A DNA stretch of 51,330 bases from an uncultured Pelagibacteraceae bacterium (GTDB taxonomy: Bacteria; Pseudomonadota; Alphaproteobacteria; Pelagibacterales; Pelagibacteraceae). The notes under the pieces are model-generated. The model was not told where the DNA came from. It saw only the letters and a list, made by a program, of their open reading frames with translations, and did not search any database. The translations under genes and the position numbers were made by a program. This document shows, piece after piece, positions 22,510 to 31,033 of the stretch. The stretch is from assembly GCA_902623215.1 (NCBI GenBank), contig CACNSS010000003.1:1-51330 (forward strand). The letters are read 5' to 3'. Numbering within the stretch: the first letter of the stretch is position 1; each line of letters starts with the position of its first letter.

Positions 22510-23880
22510 TTGCCACAATCACTTAAACTTACCAAGGACCCAATATGGTTTTTATTAAGGAAAGTCACAATCCCAGCAAGTGTTGGTTCGTTATTTCAAA
22601 CTTTTTATAATTTAGTCGACACATGGTTCGCAGGAAGAATATCAGCTGAAGCAATAGCAGCAATTGCAAAATCTTTTCCAATTTACTTTACTATAATTGC
22701 CATAGGTGTTGGTTTAACAGCTGGTACAAATACATTAATAGGTAATAATTTAGGAGCTAATAATAAAAAAAAAGCTTCATTATTTATTGCTCAATCGATA
22801 ATTTTTGCAATTTTTTTATCTGTTCTTGTTACTCTCTTTGGTTTAAACGTTTCAGATTTCTTATTGTCATTAATGGGATCTGACCCAGATGGAATTATTT
22901 TATCAAGAGAATATCTAGATATTATTTTTTATGGAACAATTATTGTTTTAATACAAATTTCCCTAAATGGGACTTTAAATGCTCAAGGAGATACTAAAAG
23001 TTACAGAAATGTATTGATATTTACTTTCTTTTTAAATATTTTTTTAAATCCTTTATTTATTTTTGGATATGGATTTATTCCTGCTTTTGGCATAGCAGGT
23101 TTAGCAATAGCCACGGTTGTTGCTCAATTTACTGGTCTGCTTTATTTGGCGCATAAGGTATATTGTTGTGAGTTAAAACAATACCTAAAACTGGAATGCT
23201 TTATTCCTAAATTTAATCTTTTGGGTGAGTTAGTATATCAAACCATACCTGTTATGTTTAGTATGTTATTAATTGGTGTGGGTTTATTTAATATTCTTTA
23301 TTTCATTGGACAATTTGGAGATCTTGCAACCGCCGGTTATGGCGCTGCCCTAAGAATTGAACAAGTTTTTTTACTACCTGTTATAGGCTTGAATACAGCT
23401 GTTTTATCTATTGGTGGACAAAACTTTGGGGCAAAAAATTATGATCGTCTTAGAGAATTATATAAAAAAGCTTTACTATTTGGCTCATCTTTCATGATTT
23501 GTGCAGGAATAATAATTTTTATCGGAGCAGAATTTTTAGTTTCATTATTTACGGATAATCCAGAGGCAGTAAAACATGGTGCAATTTACCTAAAAGTTGC
23601 AGCATTGATTGGTCCTATCTATCCAGTGTTCTTTATTACTACTGCAGTATTTCAAGCAGTCAAAAAACCTCTTTATAGTCTTTATATGAGTGTTTTAAGA
23701 TTAACAGCCCTTCCTTTTTTTTGTTTATGGTATGTAATTAATATTAGAGGAGGTGATTATGAGGACATTTTTTACACTATATTTGCAACAAATTGGTTAA
23801 TGGGAATTGCAGTTTTGATGTTTATTGGATATTTCTTAAATAATGTTTTTAAACAAAATAAGAGTCTTTTTATTAATTAA
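22510..23880 (+). CDS. MATE-family multidrug/metabolite exporter
   Basis: Multi-antimicrobial extrusion family transporter of 456 residues, with about twelve transmembrane segments in two homologous halves. TIPASVGSLFQTFYNLVDTWFAGRI in the first helix and INLNP-like NIFLNPLFIFGYGFIPAFGIAGLAIATV in the middle are characteristic. The start is TTG at 22510, supported by an AGGA ribosome site 7 bases upstream and by family alignment. No earlier in-frame ATG fits. Substrate unknown. The 3' end overlaps the next gene by 38 bases. Confidence 0.9.
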   Translation: MPQSLKLTKDPIWFLLRKVTIPASVGSLFQTFYNLVDTWFAGRISAEAIAAIAKSFPIYFTIIAIGVGLTAGTNTLIGNNLGANNKKKASLFIAQSIIFAIFLSVLVTLFGLNVSDFLLSLMGSDPDGIILSREYLDIIFYGTIIVLIQISLNGTLNAQGDTKSYRNVLIFTFFLNIFLNPLFIFGYGFIPAFGIAGLAIATVVAQFTGLLYLAHKVYCCELKQYLKLECFIPKFNLLGELVYQTIPVMFSMLLIGVGLFNILYFIGQFGDLATAGYGAALRIEQVFLLPVIGLNTAVLSIGGQNFGAKNYDRLRELYKKALLFGSSFMICAGIIIFIGAEFLVSLFTDNPEAVKHGAIYLKVAALIGPIYPVFFITTAVFQAVKKPLYSLYMSVLRLTALPFFCLWYVINIRGGDYEDIFYTIFATNWLMGIAVLMFIGYFLNNVFKQNKSLFIN

Positions 23881-24370
23881 TTTACATATAGTCATTCTTT
23901 TAATTAGCCCAGAAAATCTTAAAGCTAAAGAGTTAAAAATTATCACAGGTATTGCAAAGGTCATTGATGGTGACACAATTTTAATAAATAAAAAAAAAAT
24001 TCGTCTTTTTGGAATTGATGCCCCAGAACGGTATCAAAAATGTCAAAAAATTTGGCTAACAATCTCTTTCTTTTCATTTAAAAAAGATTATTTTTGCGGT
24101 GAGATTTCTACTAATAGGCTCAAAAAAAAAATTAACAATCAATTTATGAGCTGTAAATGGAAAAATAAAGATAGATATAAAAGATTTATCGCTGAATGTT
24201 TTAAGGGCAAGACTAACATCAATGCTTGGATGGTTCGATATGGTTATGCTGTTGCATATAGAAAATACTCAAAAAAATATGTTGCACATGAAGATATAGC
24301 AAAAAAAGACAAATTAGGTTTATGGGCTGGTACTTTTGAAATGCCTTGGGATTATAGAAAAAAAAATTAA
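23843..24370 (+). CDS. Secreted thermonuclease-like (SNase) protein
   Basis: Staphylococcal nuclease-fold protein of 175 residues with an N-terminal signal peptide ending near AKA (residue 29). The catalytic framework is visible: VIDGDTILI, RLFGIDAPE (Arg/Glu pair) and DRYKRFIAECF with the second Arg. Four to five cysteines in the mature part fit a periplasmic disulfide-bonded form. The ATG lies 38 bases inside the MATE gene; no alternative downstream start would retain the signal peptide. Likely DNA/RNA scavenging or turnover, by inference. It converges on the ABC permease with a 4-base overlap. Confidence 0.88.
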   Translation: MFLNKIRVFLLINLHIVILLISPENLKAKELKIITGIAKVIDGDTILINKKKIRLFGIDAPERYQKCQKIWLTISFFSFKKDYFCGEISTNRLKKKINNQFMSCKWKNKDRYKRFIAECFKGKTNINAWMVRYGYAVAYRKYSKKYVAHEDIAKKDKLGLWAGTFEMPWDYRKKN

Positions 24371-25098
24371 TCCTTTTGCAATTTTTTTTCAAATTTTCTC
24401 ACTAGATAGGAAACAATTAATATTAAAACTAAATACTCAAGAATTAAAAATGTATATATTTCAAGAGGGCGATAGGTTGTAACAACGAGTTCATTAGCTT
24501 TTCTTGTCAAATCACCAATGCCTATAATTGATACTAAAGAAGACATCTTTAAGACATAGACAAATTGATTTCCTATTGCAGGTAAAATATTTTTGATAGC
24601 CTGAGGAAGAATAACAAGCTTTAATTTTTTGACAAAATTTAATCCCAACGAACTTCCAGCCTCCCACTGGGACTTCTTGATGGAGTTTATGCCCGCTCTA
24701 AAAATTTCTGCTTGAAACGCACTTTCACTTATAGATAGTGCAATAATGTCAGATACAAATGGACTAAAGCTAATACCCGTCATTATTGGTAGTCCATAAT
24801 AGATCCATAATATTAATACTAATAATGGTATTGCCCTCACAATCTCAACATAGCCAATATTGATATAAGTTAAAAATTTATTTTTAGCTAATGATGGTAT
24901 AGCTACAATTAATCCAACGAAGATTGAGATAATAATTGAAACTAAAGAAATAAAAATTGTGGTGGTTAAACCACTTAATAGAAACTTTAAATTTGTTAAA
25001 CCTTCAATATTGTTTGGTGATAAGATTAGCCAATTAAGTTCACCTTTATTACATGAAGTTAAAGGAATAATTAGAAGTAAAAAAAATAAATTTCTCAC
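24367..25098 (-). CDS. Polar amino acid-type ABC transporter permease with N-terminal lipobox
   Basis: Inner-membrane permease of the HisM/GlnP family, 243 residues. The EAA loop reads WEAGSSLGLNFVKKLKLVILPQA, and SAFQAEIFRAGINSI is also typical. The N-terminus is unusual: MRNLFFLLLIIPLTSCNKG resembles a lipoprotein signal with lipobox LTSC, followed by the soluble WLILSPNNIEG stretch before the first permease helix. The start codon is GTG at 25098. It follows the binding-protein gene by 40 bases. No ATPase or second permease is adjacent, so the transporter is incomplete here. Confidence 0.88.
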   Translation of the reverse strand: MRNLFFLLLIIPLTSCNKGELNWLILSPNNIEGLTNLKFLLSGLTTTIFISLVSIIISIFVGLIVAIPSLAKNKFLTYINIGYVEIVRAIPLLVLILWIYYGLPIMTGISFSPFVSDIIALSISESAFQAEIFRAGINSIKKSQWEAGSSLGLNFVKKLKLVILPQAIKNILPAIGNQFVYVLKMSSLVSIIGIGDLTRKANELVVTTYRPLEIYTFLILEYLVLILIVSYLVRKFEKKLQKD

Positions 25099-25138
25099 CC
25101 CTCAATTTATAAAGTATTGATCAGTAAATACTAATTTA

Positions 25139-25906
25139 TTATAAACTTTTTAGATTATATTTAGCTAACAACTTAGTAAAGAAGCCCGATGATTTCTTCT
25201 TTTTAATCCAGTCATTAACATAGTTGTTCCATTTATTATCACCTTTAGGAACCATCATAGCTAAAAAAGCAGGATTTTTTTCACCGTCAGGAACGATAGC
25301 TAATTGTGGATATTTAATAACTAACTTATTTGCTTCTGTTGAACTTGTTATATTTCCATCTGCTCTTCCAGCTAATACTTCTTGAAAATCTCTAGCAGGA
25401 GCTTCTACAGAATTTAATTTCGATTTAGGAAAAAATTCTTTTGCTTTTTCTTCTTGTGATGTGCCAAGAGTAGTTGCAATAGTTACACTAGAGTTATTAA
25501 GAGAGTCCCAGGTTGAAAATTTACTTAAATTCTTTTTTAGAACAAGTGGTACAGTTCCATATTTATAGTAGGTATCTGTAAATCCAGCTACTTCAGCTCT
25601 TTTAGGAGTTTTCGTGACACTTGTTGATATATCATACCTCTCAGAAGTTATTCCAGAAACGATAGTTTTCCACTCAGCTGGTACAAATTCAATTTTAACA
25701 CCCATGTCCTTAGCTAGTTCATTCATTACATCGATATCAAATCCTTTATATTTATTAGTTGCTGGATCTTTAATAGTCATAGGATCCCAATCTCCAGTTG
25801 TTCCAACTTTTAAGATACCTGATGATAAAATCTTGTCTAAGTTTGATTCTGCATTTAAATTAAAGGGTAAAAGAGCTAAGATTGCTAAATAGATTAATTT
25901 TTTCAT
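25139..25906 (-). CDS. Periplasmic solute-binding protein related to cyclohexadienyl dehydratase
   Basis: Family 3 extracellular solute-binding fold, 255 residues from ATG 25906, with a signal peptide cleaved near Ala19 (NLNA-ES). The mature start [20 protein letters not shown] and [19 protein letters not shown] closely resemble both amino-acid binding proteins and the periplasmic dehydratase PheC. Glu191 (TSSTEANKL) aligns by eye with the catalytic Glu of PheC. The neighbouring permease argues for transport. Ligand unknown; its position after sarcosine oxidase hints at a methylated amine or amino acid, but this is weak. The frame extends 5 codons upstream to a TTG that I reject. Confidence 0.85.
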
Positions 25907-25939
25907 TCTAATTCTTAACAAATTTAAAAAAAAATGAGA

Positions 25940-26503
25940 CTATAATCTTGACGCACTATCATTCATCCAAGAAAACAAATGTTGTGAAAAAGAGCGTCTT
26001 ACAAAAAGATTCACGTCATTTTGACTCTCATTTTGTATAATTACATCAATTTTTGCTAATATTGTTTGTGTGACAGAAGCCTTTTTTTTTCTAAAATCAT
26101 TGAAATTAAATGGTGATCCAGTCTCAAATAAATCATAAATTTTGTCACCTTTAAGATTAATTAAAATAAATTGGTCAGTAACATCTGTGACAGCTCCTAA
26201 ATTTGTTTTACAAATACTTTTATTAAGTAAATTTTCTATTTGATAATCGTTGCTACCAATGTGGGAAGCCTCATTTGAAAAAACCATCCATTCATCAGGA
26301 CTTAGCCAAAGCGCAGTTAATTTATCGCTTTTAGTAAAAGTATTTGCTTCGGCTGGCAATATCAAATTTAATGATTTACCAACTGCAGATAAAAATTCTC
26401 TTTTTTTTCCCCTTAGTATTAGTTTCATTATAGGTTTAACTTCTCTCATTTGTAATCCTGAATAAGATTTTTCCTCTGTAATTGGGTTTGAATAATTAAG
26501 CAT
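25940..26503 (-). CDS. soxG: Sarcosine oxidase gamma subunit
   Basis: Small subunit of heterotetrameric sarcosine oxidase, 187 residues. It resembles the aminomethyltransferase-like fold of SoxG: LSPDEWMVFS, TNLGAVTDVTDQFILINLKG and the C-terminal FVRRSFSQHLFSWMNDSA are recognisable. It overlaps soxA by 8 bases. Divergence in this subunit is normal, so the call leans partly on position as fourth gene of soxBDAG. The next gene downstream, the binding protein, starts after about 34 bases and could be in the same transcript. Confidence 0.88.
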   Translation of the reverse strand: MLNYSNPITEEKSYSGLQMREVKPIMKLILRGKKREFLSAVGKSLNLILPAEANTFTKSDKLTALWLSPDEWMVFSNEASHIGSNDYQIENLLNKSICKTNLGAVTDVTDQFILINLKGDKIYDLFETGSPFNFNDFRKKKASVTQTILAKIDVIIQNESQNDVNLFVRRSFSQHLFSWMNDSASRL

Positions 26504-29501
26504 TCAATCTTTTATTCTCCTTGTCTAAAAACACTGGATCCGTAACCGTCACGTTGATTTGTTTATTTTCCATAGGGATGATTAGTTTTTGACCCATCAT
26601 ATTTTTTCCACCTTTAACAACCCCTAAAGCAATAGATTTTTCTAAATTTGGACTATAGTAACTCGAAGTTACGTGACCCAACATTTCAACTGGAGATTTG
26701 TTTGCGTCCAAAACTATTTGAGCGCCTTCTTCTAAAACTTCTTTTGGGTTTTCCGTAACCAAACCAATTAATTGTTTTCTATCATCTCTGATTGTATCTG
26801 ATCTATATAAAGATCTTTTACCAATAAAGTCATATTTCTTTTTACTAACTATCCAATCCATTTGTAAATCAATTGGTGTCATAGTTGCATCTGTGTCTTG
26901 TCCTACAATTATAAATCCTTTTTCAGCTCTGAGTAAATGCATTGTTTCAGTCCCATAAGGTGTGATATTAAATTCTTTTCCTGCCTGCATACACTTGTCC
27001 CATACAGATTTTCCATAGTTAGCCTGAACGTTAATTTCATAACTTTGTTCACCAGTAAAACTTATTCTCATTACTCTACATTTGACTTTGTCAATTTTGG
27101 TATTTTTAAAAGACATATGTGGAAATTTCTCATCGGACAAATCTAGATTAGGAATTACTTTTGAAATGATTTTTTTACTGTTAGGACCACAAACACTAAT
27201 TGTTGCATAATGATCTGTCACTGAAGTAAGGTATACGTCTAACTCTGGCCACTCTGTTTGAAGGTAATCTTCTAATTTACTTAAAACGGTTGCAGCTCCA
27301 CCTGTTGTTGTAGTCATAATGTAGTGATTTTCATCTAAGCGTGTGGTTACACCATCGTCATAAACCATGCCATCCTCATTAAGCATTAGTCCATATCGAC
27401 ATTTTCCAATAGCAAGCTTTGACCATGCATTGGTATAAACTCTATTTAAAAACTCTGAGGCATCTGTACCTTGAATATCAATTTTACCTAATGTTGAAGC
27501 ATCTAATATACCGGCACTGTCTCTTGCGGCCTTACTTTCTCTTTGTACAGCTTCATGCATACCCTCATTTTCTTTTGGATAAAACCAAGCTCTTTTCCAT
27601 TGTCCCACATTTTCAAATTTCGCTTTATTTTCAACGTGCCAATCATGAATTGGAGTTTTTCTAGAAACATCAAAATACTCTCCCACATTTCTTCCAACAA
27701 TTGTACCAAAAGTAAGAGGTGTGTAGGGTGGTCTAAATGTTGTTGTACCAAGCTCACCCATTTTAGAGCCAGCAGTTTCAGAGATAATTCCTAACGCATG
27801 CATATTGCCAAGTTTACCTTGATCAGTTCCCATTCCAGTTGTTGTATATCTTTTTACATGTTCAATTGATCGGAATCCTTCTCTTAAAGCTAATTTGATA
27901 TCTTTTGCTGTAGCATCATTTTGATAATCAACAAATGGTTTTGTCTTACCAATTATCTTATCAGACGGAAGTAACCATATATTTCTTTTAGTTTTATTGA
28001 AATGAGATAGGATCTCAAGATTTTCATATTCAGTTTTCTTAATATTTAAGAAATCTTTAAGTTTTTTTGAAATGCTTGATAATATTTCATCTAATGTAAA
28101 TTCTCCATTACAAGAACCTATACTTATTTGATCTGAAGGATATGTATCCGGAATAAATACTTGATCGTCATCTCTGAATTTCAATTTTCCGCCAGATTGC
28201 GTGAAAAGATGCACTGCTGGTGTCCATCCTCCAGACATGCCAAGGCAATCACAATCAATAGAAATTTTAGAGCCCACAACTTTTTGACCATCTTTAGAGA
28301 GTTGCATTATTGAAATTTTATTAATCCTTTTGTATCCAAATGTATTAACAACTGTGTAACCTTTATATATTTTTATATTATTTTTTTCTATTTCTTTGAC
28401 TAATTTTGAATCAACATTTTCTCTATTATCGATAATAGCTTCAATATTGATTCCTTTTTGAAATAAACTTATTGCTGTTTCATATGCACTATCGTTATTA
28501 GTAAAAAGAACATTTTTTTGGCCACATGCAACACCAAACAAATTCGAGTATTTTTCTATGGCGGATGATAGCAAAATTCCCGGTCGGTCATTATTGTCAA
28601 ATACCAAAGGTCTTTCTAAAGATCCCGTTGCACTTATAACCTTTTTTGCTCTAATTTTCAGTAGTCTATGACGAACTTTTCCATCTCTTTGATGCAAAGG
28701 TAAATGATCCGTTAAATTTTCTCGTGCCAATAAAAAATTGTAGCTATGAAAAGCAGCAACACTTGTTCTTGTCTTTATTTCTAAATTATCAATTTTTTTT
28801 ATTTCATTTATTTCTTTCTCTATCCATGAGCTCGAGATTTGATTGTTAATCTTGAAGTGTTCTGAATTTTGATAAATTGTAGAACCACCAAGATAAGGTT
28901 TTTCATCTAACAATAGTGTTTTAAAACCATTTTTTGCAGAAGTTTTTGCTGCAATTATACCTGAGATACCAGCACCAATAATTAGAACATCACAATGGAT
29001 ATATTTATGCTCATATATATCAGGATCAGGCTCCGTAGGTGATTTACCTAAACCCGCAGACTTTCTTATAAAATACTCATATTTTTTCCAAAAACTTGCT
29101 GGCCACATGAAAGTTTTATAATAAAAACCCGCTGGAAGCACAGGACTTAAAAAATTATTTATACCTCCAATATCAAAGTTTACACTTGGCCAACAATTTT
29201 GACTTGAAGCCTCAAGTCCTTCATAAATTTCTATTTCTGTTGCTCTAACATTTGGTTCGGTTCGAGATGTGTTTTTATGAATTTGAACAATAGCATTAGG
29301 CTCTTCTGAACCTGCAGTCATTATTCCTCTTGGTCTATGGTATTTAAAACTTCTTCCAATTAAATGAATACCATTAGCTAAAAGTGCAGATGCTAATGTA
29401 TCTCCCTTATAACCATAATAATTTTTATTATTAAACTTAAACGAAATTTTATATGTTTCATCTATAAACTTACTTGATTTAACTCTTAAATTATTTGTCA
29501 T
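26496..29501 (-). CDS. soxA: Sarcosine oxidase alpha subunit
   Basis: Large subunit of sarcosine oxidase, 1001 residues. In order it has a ferredoxin-like N-terminal domain (about 20-110; GDTLASALLANG, SFKYHRPRGIM), an NAD-binding Rossmann domain (CDVLIIGAGISGIIAAKTS near 175-195) and a glycine-cleavage T-like domain from about residue 615. The T-like domain binds tetrahydrofolate in known enzymes, so the methyl group of sarcosine can leave as 5,10-methylene-THF. It lies 3 bases after soxD and overlaps soxG. A heterotetrameric dimethylglycine-type enzyme is a less likely alternative. Confidence 0.95.
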   Translation of the reverse strand: MTNNLRVKSSKFIDETYKISFKFNNKNYYGYKGDTLASALLANGIHLIGRSFKYHRPRGIMTAGSEEPNAIVQIHKNTSRTEPNVRATEIEIYEGLEASSQNCWPSVNFDIGGINNFLSPVLPAGFYYKTFMWPASFWKKYEYFIRKSAGLGKSPTEPDPDIYEHKYIHCDVLIIGAGISGIIAAKTSAKNGFKTLLLDEKPYLGGSTIYQNSEHFKINNQISSSWIEKEINEIKKIDNLEIKTRTSVAAFHSYNFLLARENLTDHLPLHQRDGKVRHRLLKIRAKKVISATGSLERPLVFDNNDRPGILLSSAIEKYSNLFGVACGQKNVLFTNNDSAYETAISLFQKGINIEAIIDNRENVDSKLVKEIEKNNIKIYKGYTVVNTFGYKRINKISIMQLSKDGQKVVGSKISIDCDCLGMSGGWTPAVHLFTQSGGKLKFRDDDQVFIPDTYPSDQISIGSCNGEFTLDEILSSISKKLKDFLNIKKTEYENLEILSHFNKTKRNIWLLPSDKIIGKTKPFVDYQNDATAKDIKLALREGFRSIEHVKRYTTTGMGTDQGKLGNMHALGIISETAGSKMGELGTTTFRPPYTPLTFGTIVGRNVGEYFDVSRKTPIHDWHVENKAKFENVGQWKRAWFYPKENEGMHEAVQRESKAARDSAGILDASTLGKIDIQGTDASEFLNRVYTNAWSKLAIGKCRYGLMLNEDGMVYDDGVTTRLDENHYIMTTTTGGAATVLSKLEDYLQTEWPELDVYLTSVTDHYATISVCGPNSKKIISKVIPNLDLSDEKFPHMSFKNTKIDKVKCRVMRISFTGEQSYEINVQANYGKSVWDKCMQAGKEFNITPYGTETMHLLRAEKGFIIVGQDTDATMTPIDLQMDWIVSKKKYDFIGKRSLYRSDTIRDDRKQLIGLVTENPKEVLEEGAQIVLDANKSPVEMLGHVTSSYYSPNLEKSIALGVVKGGKNMMGQKLIIPMENKQINVTVTDPVFLDKENKRLNA

Positions 29502-29504
29502 TTA

Positions 29505-29780
29505 TTATTTTACTGGAGGCTTTTCACCCATTTTATAAATTGCTTTAATTTCATCATTAGATGTATCTCTCACCATATTAAACCATTTTCTACATCCATG
29601 ACTATGAACCCATCTTTCAAACTGAATACCCTTTATATTTTTTCTCATAAATAGATATTCAGCCCACTGATCATCACTTAATTCAGTTGGTTGTTTTGGT
29701 CTAACTATATGAGCCTCCCCTCCAGCTTTAAACTCACTTTGCTCTCTTTGACCACAATAAGGACAATTAATTACAAACAT
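29505..29780 (-). CDS. soxD: Sarcosine oxidase delta subunit
   Basis: Zinc-binding small subunit of sarcosine oxidase, 91 residues. It starts with the zinc knuckle CPYCGQREQSEF, followed by GGEAHIVRP, WAEYLFMRKN and a C-terminal WVHSHGCRKWFN that supplies the remaining His/Cys ligands. These are the family features. The ATG overlaps the soxB stop by one base (TAATG) and soxA starts 3 bases after its end, so all subunits are made together. Confidence 0.95.
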   Translation of the reverse strand: MFVINCPYCGQREQSEFKAGGEAHIVRPKQPTELSDDQWAEYLFMRKNIKGIQFERWVHSHGCRKWFNMVRDTSNDEIKAIYKMGEKPPVK

Positions 29781-31033
29781 TAATGTGCTACAGCAGCTGC
29801 ACCATGTTCATCAACAAGATCTCCACTTATAAATCTATTAAGATTAAATGCAGCATTTAATTTATGAGGTTCGTCATTTGCTATTGTATGAGCGAATAGA
29901 TCTCCTGAACCTGGTGTTGCTTTAAATCCTCCAGTTCCCCAACCACAGTTAAAGTATAAACCTTTGATTGGCGTCTTACTAATAATTGGACTCGCGTCAG
30001 GGCATATATCAACAATACCACCCCATTGTCTTAACATTCTCATTCGGCTAAATATTGGATATAATTCTAAAATAGCATTTAAAGTTCCCTCTACAATTTC
30101 ATGACTGCCTTTTTGAGAATAAGAAACGTAATCGTCTGTGCCTGCTCCAATCACCAGCTCTCCTTTATCAGACTGACTTACATATGCATGTACGGCATTA
30201 GACATCACTACCGTATCAATTATGGGTTTTACTGGCTCAGAAACTAGAGCTTGAAGTGGTTTACTTTCTAATGGTAACTTTAAACCTGCCATGTTTGCTA
30301 TTACACTTGAATGGCCAGCAGCAACAACACCAATTTTTTTTGTTTTGATAAAACCTTTTGTTGTTTCAACTCCATCAACACTATCACCACTTCTTTTAAT
30401 TCCTTTAACTTCACAATTTTGAATTATATCAACACCCATTTCATCAGCACCTCTTGCATAACCCCAAGCTACGGCATCATGACGTGCAGTACCAGCTCTC
30501 CGCTGGAGAGTTCCGCCTAAAACTGGATATCTAATATCTGGAGATGTGTTTATAATTGGACAAAATTTTTTTACCTGTTGTGTATTAAGATAAACTGAAT
30601 CAATACCATTCAATCTGTTAGCATGAGTCCTTCTTTTAAGATCTCTAACATCTTGTAAATTATGAGCTAGATTCATTACACCCCGTTGACTAAACATTAC
30701 ATTGTAATTTAATTCTTGAGAAAGTTTTTCCCAAATTTTTAGAGCATGATCATACAAACCTGCGCTTGCATCCCACAAATAGTTTGATCTAATTATTGTA
30801 GTGTTTCTCCCAGTGTTTCCTCCACCAATCCAACCTTTTTCTAAAACTGCAATATTTTTCACATTGTGTTTTTTAGCAAGATAATATGCAGTTGCTAAAC
30901 CATGGCCACCACCTCCAATTATGACAATATCATATTCCTTTTTTGGTTCAGGATCACCCCAAGCTTTTTGCCAATTTTCATGATAGGTAAAAGAATTTTT
31001 TATTAGAGAAATTATAGAATATTTATTTTTCAT
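29780..31033 (-). CDS. soxB: Sarcosine oxidase beta subunit
   Basis: Catalytic flavin subunit that oxidises sarcosine to glycine, with oxygen giving H2O2. The 417 residues include the FAD Rossmann motif [20 protein letters not shown] (34-53) and [18 protein letters not shown]. His185 in [19 protein letters not shown] is the likely site of covalent FMN attachment, judged from known heterotetrameric enzymes. The C-terminus has [18 protein letters not shown]. It is the first gene of soxBDAG; its upstream region of 62 bases holds a 14-base palindrome and then a divergent tRNA gene. Confidence 0.95.

Follow-up and report, generated by a model that had tools for sequence, protein, structure and literature searches.

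A SAR11 relative of cyclohexadienyl dehydratase is very probably the binding protein of an ABC importer whose permease carries a lipoprotein-type signal

SAR11 bacteria are among the most abundant cell types of the sea. The closest solved homologue of the SAR11 protein described here is PDB entry 5KKW/5WJP, which we take to be Pu1068, that is, SAR11_1068 of Candidatus Pelagibacter ubique, and the PDB molecule name of 5KKW reads 'Cyclohexadienyl dehydratase'. This name clashes with the published placing of Pu1068, which the accessible text of PMC7683729 describes as a non-enzymatic relative of cyclohexadienyl dehydratase (CDT, PheC) with the properties of a solute-binding protein (SBP); in the same text, Glu173 of CDT is the catalytic general acid. 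Genes SAR11_1064-1067 are identified as soxBDAG in the accessible text of PMC3160333, where it is unsettled which of two paralogous operons encodes sarcosine oxidase and which encodes N-methylglutamate dehydrogenase. SAR11_1068 carries the next number, and the linkage between sox and SBP is therefore visible in public annotation. A literature search, conducted mostly at title level, found no published discussion of the soxBDAG-SAR11_1068 linkage; it likewise found no ligand for Pu1068/SAR11_1068, which may already be in print.

We analysed a window of 51,330 nucleotides (positions 1 to 51,330 of contig CACNSS010000003.1, assembly GCA_902623215.1) from an uncultured Pelagibacteraceae bacterium. 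The window contains an SBP gene at positions 25139-25906, as an earlier note on this DNA had reported without giving the strand; the gene is on the minus strand, and its translation contains the 19-residue stretch quoted in that note. Counted from ATG, the open reading frame comprises 255 aa; the mechanical list of open reading frames starts it five codons upstream, with TTG at position 25921, and gives 260 aa. Residues 1-19 read by eye as a Sec-type signal peptide ending at LNA/ES (25850-25906, minus strand), and the phmmer match to 5KKW starts at residue 19. The protein matches PF00497 (SBP_bac_3) at 104 bits, against a curated cut-off of 26.4. It is identical to Pu1068 (5KKW, E 3.5e-137) at 209 of 237 residues (88.2%); in genome G011 the corresponding protein is identical to 5KKW at 237 of 237. 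The PF00497 match, the 5KKW match, and the tree described below identify the gene as an orthologue of Pu1068/SAR11_1068, and the SBP itself is already known, being the orthologue of a solved protein. Across the SAR11 order, the SBP is found in 102 of 197 genomes at E <= 1e-20, with a single match per genome.

To place the SBP, we built an unrooted tree, displayed from its midpoint, of 81 natural protein sequences. The tree contains a Pu1068-like clade of 44 rows (98/93), which includes the SBP, and a second group (100/99) made up of the 17 CDT rows; the two are joined (98/93), apart from a further 20 SBPs of the superfamily that include several long branches. The CDT rows comprise P. aeruginosa CDT (PaCDT), 8CQ6, and 15 loci from Alphaproteobacteria that share 42-58% identity with PaCDT and are assumed to be active. 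The other rows comprise 18 of 30 matches to the arginine-binding ancestor AncCDT-1, plus the two further SBPs of the window's own genome (L001 and L003); the remaining 12 matches were left out, 11 being already present in other groups and one containing a stop. Three of 80 named loci were used (the named loci are the 80 top-ranking relatives out of 422, each with 91% identity or more), and the near-copies L140, L141, L151, L153, and L154, together with reconstructed ancestors, were omitted. The residue counts over the larger set are from a MAFFT alignment of 124 loci (147 loci with matches, less 21 duplicates and two with internal stops), the window, and six PDB rows. In the tree, the SBP falls in the sister clade of CDT, outside the CDT clade. 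The impression that the protein resembles PheC more than a generic binder stands as a statement of kinship, given the joining with CDT apart from the 20 other SBPs; it does not extend beyond kinship, with identities of 28.5% to PaCDT, 41.6% to AncCDT-1, and 88.2% to Pu1068.

The pocket residues separate the two sister clades. Residue Glu191 (codon 25334-25336, minus strand) had been aligned by eye with the catalytic Glu of PheC, and both HMMER pairings and the MAFFT alignment agree in pairing it with CDT Glu173. In this superfamily, the Arg at the position of Arg103 binds the ligand carboxylate, and an Asp at position 188 binds the amino group. Arg103 (codon 25598-25600, minus strand) is invariant in 81 of 81 rows. 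Position 188, in contrast, is Ser in the SBP (codon 25343-25345, minus strand), where Asp is present in 17 of 17 CDT rows and in 13 of 20 other SBP rows. Specifically, Asp188 together with Glu191 occurs in 17 of 17 CDT rows and in none of the 44 Pu1068-like rows, of which 37 have Ser188 with Glu or Asp at 191 and seven have Asp188 with an aromatic residue at 191; none of the 20 other SBP rows has an acid at 191. The loop NPGxxN shows the same division, being present in 17 of 17 CDT rows and in none of the 44 Pu1068-like rows. The use of the NPGGTN loop and Asp188 as marks of CDT was drawn from the aligned rows and not from a published definition.

These observations bear on whether the SBP could be a periplasmic cyclohexadienyl or arogenate dehydratase, or a protein that both binds and catalyses, as its sister relation to CDT, the presence of Glu191 at the Glu173 position, and the PDB name of its 88% homologue would suggest. 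We consider this very improbable: the SBP has neither the NPGxxN loop nor Asp188, its permease partner is conserved, and its published orthologue stands among non-enzymatic SBPs in the accessible text of PMC7683729. A PF00800 prephenate dehydratase is encoded in 183 of 197 SAR11-order genomes, including the window's own genome (C1:75017-75541), and a periplasmic CDT should therefore be dispensable for making phenylalanine. We rejected the dehydratase reading on signature residues, tree, gene context, and published orthologue taken together, and conclude, with a probability of about 0.92, that the protein is the SBP of an ABC importer and not a dehydratase. The earlier note had treated transport and catalysis as equally open, which is not supported, given the missing loop, the Ser at 188, the adjoining ABC permease, and the PF00800 enzyme in the genome; its statement that a Pelagibacter homologue had served as a non-dehydratase relative was correct, the homologue being Pu1068 (PMC7683729, accessible text).

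Glu191 is conserved well beyond the window. In the MAFFT alignment it is present in 93 of 93 sequences of SAR11 family f1 (many of them near-copies) and in 9 of 9 other alphaproteobacterial sequences at 50% identity or above, and for this reason its presence is not due to chance. Farther out, the residue varies: the SBPs of SAR11 family f2 (L147-L154) have Asp in seven cases and Glu in one, and 15 sequences below 50% identity have Phe in seven, Glu in six, and Asp in two. Across 125 aligned sequences (again with many near-copies), the 188/191 pairs are Ser/Glu in 109, Ser/Asp in nine, and Asp/Phe in seven, such that the canonical Asp188 is replaced by Ser in 118. The most fitting interpretation of Glu191 is a ligand-binding acid in a new place, not a remnant of catalysis; the acid would have moved from 188 to 191 in the Pu1068-like clade, with Glu191 acting as a binding residue. 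An attempt at statistical replication of this swap failed: the tree has only one origin of Ser188 combined with an acidic residue at 191 (a single independent pair), and because there is a single change, its tie to ligand chemistry is without statistical replication.

A second set of pocket observations concerns the ligand. Position 37 is Thr in 44 of 44 Pu1068-like rows and acidic in 12 of 20 other SBPs; with Thr37 and Ser188 in combination, the set of residues for amino-acid recognition looks lost. The arrangement of Ser188 and Glu191 leads us to predict a small carboxylate in which the nitrogen is substituted or differently placed. An N-methyl or guanidino acid, or a lactam-derived or betaine-like compound, rather than a plain alpha-amino acid, is our tentative proposal for the ligand class, put forward as a possibility that falls short of an even chance. 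It is improbable that the SBP is instead an ordinary binder of cationic or polar amino acids (Arg, Lys, Gln) with unremarkable drift in its pocket. Such a binder would fit the PF00497 superfamily assignment with its retained carboxylate-binding Arg, the 41.6% identity to arginine-binding AncCDT-1, and the best subfamily match, TIGR01096 (lysine/arginine/ornithine binders), which is below cut-off (104.7 versus 256.35 bits); the replacement of the canonical Asp by Ser in 118 of 125 sequences and the uniform Thr37 argue against it, as does the loss of arginine binding in AncCDT-2 (PMC7683729, accessible text).

The SBP gene is the fifth of six genes in a compact minus-strand row: soxB (beta subunit, 29780-31033; TIGR01373, 710.5 bits, over cut-off), soxD (delta subunit, 29505-29780; TIGR01374, 124.5 bits, over cut-off), soxA (alpha subunit of a heterotetrameric sarcosine oxidase-type enzyme, 26496-29501; TIGR01372, 1359.8 bits, over cut-off), soxG (gamma subunit-like, 25940-26503; PF04268, with TIGR01375 below cut-off at 61 versus 143.95 bits), the SBP gene, and a permease gene. 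The soxA and soxG genes overlap by 8 bp, and gaps of 33 bp and 40 bp separate soxG from the SBP gene and the SBP gene from the permease gene. The six genes are probably co-transcribed. No ATPase gene is present in this operon, and the next gene after the permease is convergent. In all 80 named loci, the best 80 of the 422 relatives, soxG is before the SBP gene and the permease gene directly after it; in 20 of 20 further SAR11-order loci, the SBP and permease genes are paired, in tandem or divergently. The divergent arrangement is seen in SAR11 family f2 (L147-L154).

The association with sox is strong in one genus and absent in others. In genus g1, the SoxA of this operon is encoded within 5 kb of the SBP in 55 of 55 SBP-bearing genomes, while at least 55 more genomes of g1 carry the operon and lack the SBP; the mere presence of both is therefore of little weight. 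In the loci with sox and no SBP, a nuclease or MatE gene follows sox at the same site in 10 of 10; the remaining four of the 14 loci covered hold sox operons that belong to other genera or to family f2. Conversely, among the 20 further SAR11-order loci, the 16 from genera g2, g4, and g5 and family f2 all have the SBP and permease genes without an adjacent sox operon, and the remaining four, from g1, have sox. One locus, L153, has a SoxA-like match at 24% about 4 kb away. No SoxD match is present in 16 of 19 SBP-bearing genomes of g2, g4, and g5; many f2 genomes carry SoxD elsewhere. Since SBP-permease pairs occur without sox and sox operons occur without the SBP, the two behave as cassettes that can be separated, and nothing requires the ligand to be a Sox substrate.

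The site itself has a hotspot-like appearance. Between the slt gene and the MatE/TRHO genes, the soxBDAG cassette and the SBP-permease cassette come and go independently, as seen at 22510-31033 of the window and in L138-L146, L261-L268, L273, and L274.

A dedicated uptake-and-demethylation operon, in which SoxBDAG acts directly on the compound bound by the SBP (sarcosine, N-methylglutamate, or some other N-methyl amino acid), would account for the 55 of 55 co-occurrence in g1, for the short gaps and the soxA/soxG overlap, and for the Sox-like genes that also occur near the distant relatives L197 and L198. We regard this as unlikely, although less so than an ordinary amino-acid binder. In g2, g4, and g5 the pocket residues are nearly the same, yet the SBP has no adjacent sox and 16 of 19 SBP-bearing genomes lack any SoxD match; in g1, at least 55 genomes carry the sox operon of the window but no SBP; and the insertion site is hotspot-like. 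A Sox substrate as the sole explanation is thereby weakened, given SBP-permease pairs without adjacent sox and sox operons without the SBP.

Relatives outside SAR11 offer a second view of gene context. At E <= 1e-35, relatives are present in 30 of 385 genomes of the class, four of them SAR11, and wide loci were taken from 20 of the 26 non-SAR11 genomes (L182-L201). Of these 20 loci, 19 have a match to the permease query and 12 have a match to a GlnQ-like ATPase query (two only at 33-35%); an ATPase is thus linked in several non-SAR11 relatives. Genes near the SBP in the 20 loci include creatininase-family genes in 10, Fe/2OG dioxygenase genes in eight, GST genes in seven, and AhpD-like genes in six, counts that stand without a size-matched control. 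In short loci, creatininase-family genes occur in 9 of 26 family loci versus 2 of 45 comparably long control loci (Fisher test, p 0.0013, with shared ancestry uncorrected), GST genes in 6 of 26 versus 0 of 45, Fe/2OG dioxygenase genes in 1 of 26 versus 0 of 45, and AhpD genes in 0 of 26 family loci. We know of no pathway that combines these four kinds of gene. The neighbouring enzymes hint at a ring containing nitrogen, an amide, or a compound with a substituted nitrogen. No creatininase-family match is present in the 197 SAR11-order genomes, and any shared ligand would therefore be handled differently there. Creatine or creatinine was considered as the ligand and not adopted, on account of this absence and of the one scored neighbour, which is below the true creatininase cut-off (81.9 versus 235 bits).

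The permease gene (24367-25098, minus strand, GTG start) encodes an ABC permease of the polar amino acid (HisM/GlnP/ArtQ) type, with TIGR01726 over cut-off and a PF00528 match. Its N-terminus, MRNLFFLLLIIPLTSC-NKGELNWLILSP, contains a lipobox, LTSC, with Cys16 as its last residue (25051-25062, minus strand), assigned by a sequence rule applied to family and controls. The lipoprotein-type signal (25051-25098, minus strand) is present in 116 of 119 family permease hits and in 0 of 34 control hits. In particular, it is present in 92 of 92 hits from SAR11 family f1, 8 of 8 from f2, and 16 of 19 from others, at a nearly fixed position ahead of the first transmembrane helix. The 119 hits are from 121 loci searched, with none in L056, where the permease is truncated by the contig end, or in L183; of the three hits scored without a lipobox, those in L182 and L190 fall short of the N-terminus, and that in L191 is a true lack. 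The controls, drawn from other permeases of the superfamily, comprised 38 hits in 26 loci, of which 34 are true controls without a lipobox and four proved to be family members with one. A first version of the lipobox pattern gave 107 of 119; the final rule was written after that output and was applied in the same form to the controls. The count of 116 is inflated because many SAR11 loci are near-identical, and the conservation of the predicted lipobox across divergent alphaproteobacteria is the stronger point. In an alignment of 32 permeases (without L182, L183, L190, and L191, the last of which lacks the Cys at 40% identity), Cys16, Trp23, and Pro28 do not vary, even in members with as little as 37% identity.

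Permeases of the HisM/GlnP type have an N-out topology, and a cleaved and lipidated N-terminus is therefore topologically possible. An AF2 model of the permease (mean pLDDT 76.8) has a helix at residues 2-13, low confidence at residues 13-22, and a long helix from residue 31; its best structural match is 4yms_D (TM 0.71/0.79, 39% identity). 4YMS is the amino acid ABC importer Art(QN)2.

The N-terminal hydrophobic stretch could instead stay uncleaved as an additional helix, with the conserved Cys carrying no lipid, a possibility to which we give appreciable weight while holding it to be somewhat less probable than lipidation. The predicted helix at 2-13 with low model confidence around Cys16, the short leader of 15 residues ahead of the Cys, and the divergent relative L191 without the motif would all be in keeping with such a helix; the retention of the Cys in 32 of 32 aligned proteins (a set outside which L191 falls) while the preceding hydrophobic residues vary, and the division of 116 of 119 family hits from 0 of 34 control hits, point to a lipoprotein signal. 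A lipobox permease, as predicted here, would be the new and surprising part of the system. Among the papers listed by a literature search, no title or abstract opening concerned a lipoprotein permease. If the lipoprotein-type signal of this ABC permease is real, it would to our knowledge represent a new arrangement for anchoring an importer.

Taking SBP and permease together, we put at even odds the proposal that Pu1068-like importers constitute a distinct family. In this proposal, the permease itself would be a lipoprotein, cleaved by signal peptidase II and tethered through a lipidated Cys16, with the conserved Trp and Pro in a periplasmic linker that may serve SBP docking or act as a gate; and the acid of the SBP would have moved from 188 to 191 to accommodate an N-substituted carboxylate, the CDT sister branch having both acids.

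The ATPase of the importer would have to come from elsewhere in the genome. Because the operon has no ATPase gene, we infer that an ATPase is shared. The window's own genome has three SBP_bac_3 matches, the two besides the SBP described here being L003 (C3:139453) and L001 (C7:4787), and one close GlnQ-like ATPase (L004, C3:136018-136464; 64% identity to the ATPase of relatives), the next best being at 38%. The ATPase at C3:136018 and the SBP near it presumably belong to a YhdWXYZ-like system. Each of 11 near-complete SAR11 genomes has exactly one ATPase at 59% or above, with the SBP present in seven and absent in four; two of the 11 have a second ATPase at 45%, and in the others the next is at 37-39%. 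These observations suggest that a single ATPase is shared among the SBP systems of the window's own genome, which is 77.85% complete. Another SBP of this genome, L001 (C7:4787-5521), is a close match to the solved protein 8HQR (E 2.5e-125), labelled only 'ABC transporter', and its next matches are octopine- and nopaline-binding proteins.

We propose the following model. The SBP very probably works in the periplasm as the ligand-binding component of a type I ABC importer that belongs to the polar-amino-acid class. It would pass its ligand to the adjacent single-gene permease, which would form a homodimer as in 4YMS-type importers. Power would come from the shared ATPase, whose gene is probably the one situated 3 kb from the gene of another SBP in the same genome. 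In the pocket, Arg103 would grip the carboxylate; with Ser188 in place of the usual amine-binding Asp, Glu191, three residues on, would contact the cationic or amine group. In Pelagibacter, the imported product may feed the neighbouring SoxBDAG.

Naming the ligand would name a nutrient for about half of the sampled SAR11 order (102 of 197 genomes), and the 'cyclohexadienyl dehydratase' label on 5KKW invites the mis-naming of SAR11 genes. The ligand would also bear on the roles of the two paralogous SAR11 sox operons discussed in the accessible text of PMC3160333. Three points are worth following: the predicted ligand, the proposed relocation of its binding acid, and the permease with its lipobox.

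Compared with known systems, the SBP is closest to Pu1068/SAR11_1068, with which it shares the same pocket residues and, in G011, the same soxBDAG-SBP-permease order, and from which it differs by ordinary sequence divergence only. With PheC (PaCDT, PDB 3KBR/5HPQ), it shares a fold superfamily, a sister clade, Glu at 191, and a TTGD motif; it differs in having Ser for Asp188, LGT in place of the NPGGTN loop, and only 28.5% identity, and, as a statement about the SBP side alone, in adjoining a permease. With AncCDT-1 and arginine-binding proteins, it has in common the SBP superfamily, Arg103, and the LGT loop, and differs in having Thr for Asp37 and Ser for Asp188. The permease, in turn, is modelled with 4YMS as its best structural match and differs, as stated for the permease described here alone, in carrying a lipoprotein-type signal and in having no linked ATPase gene.
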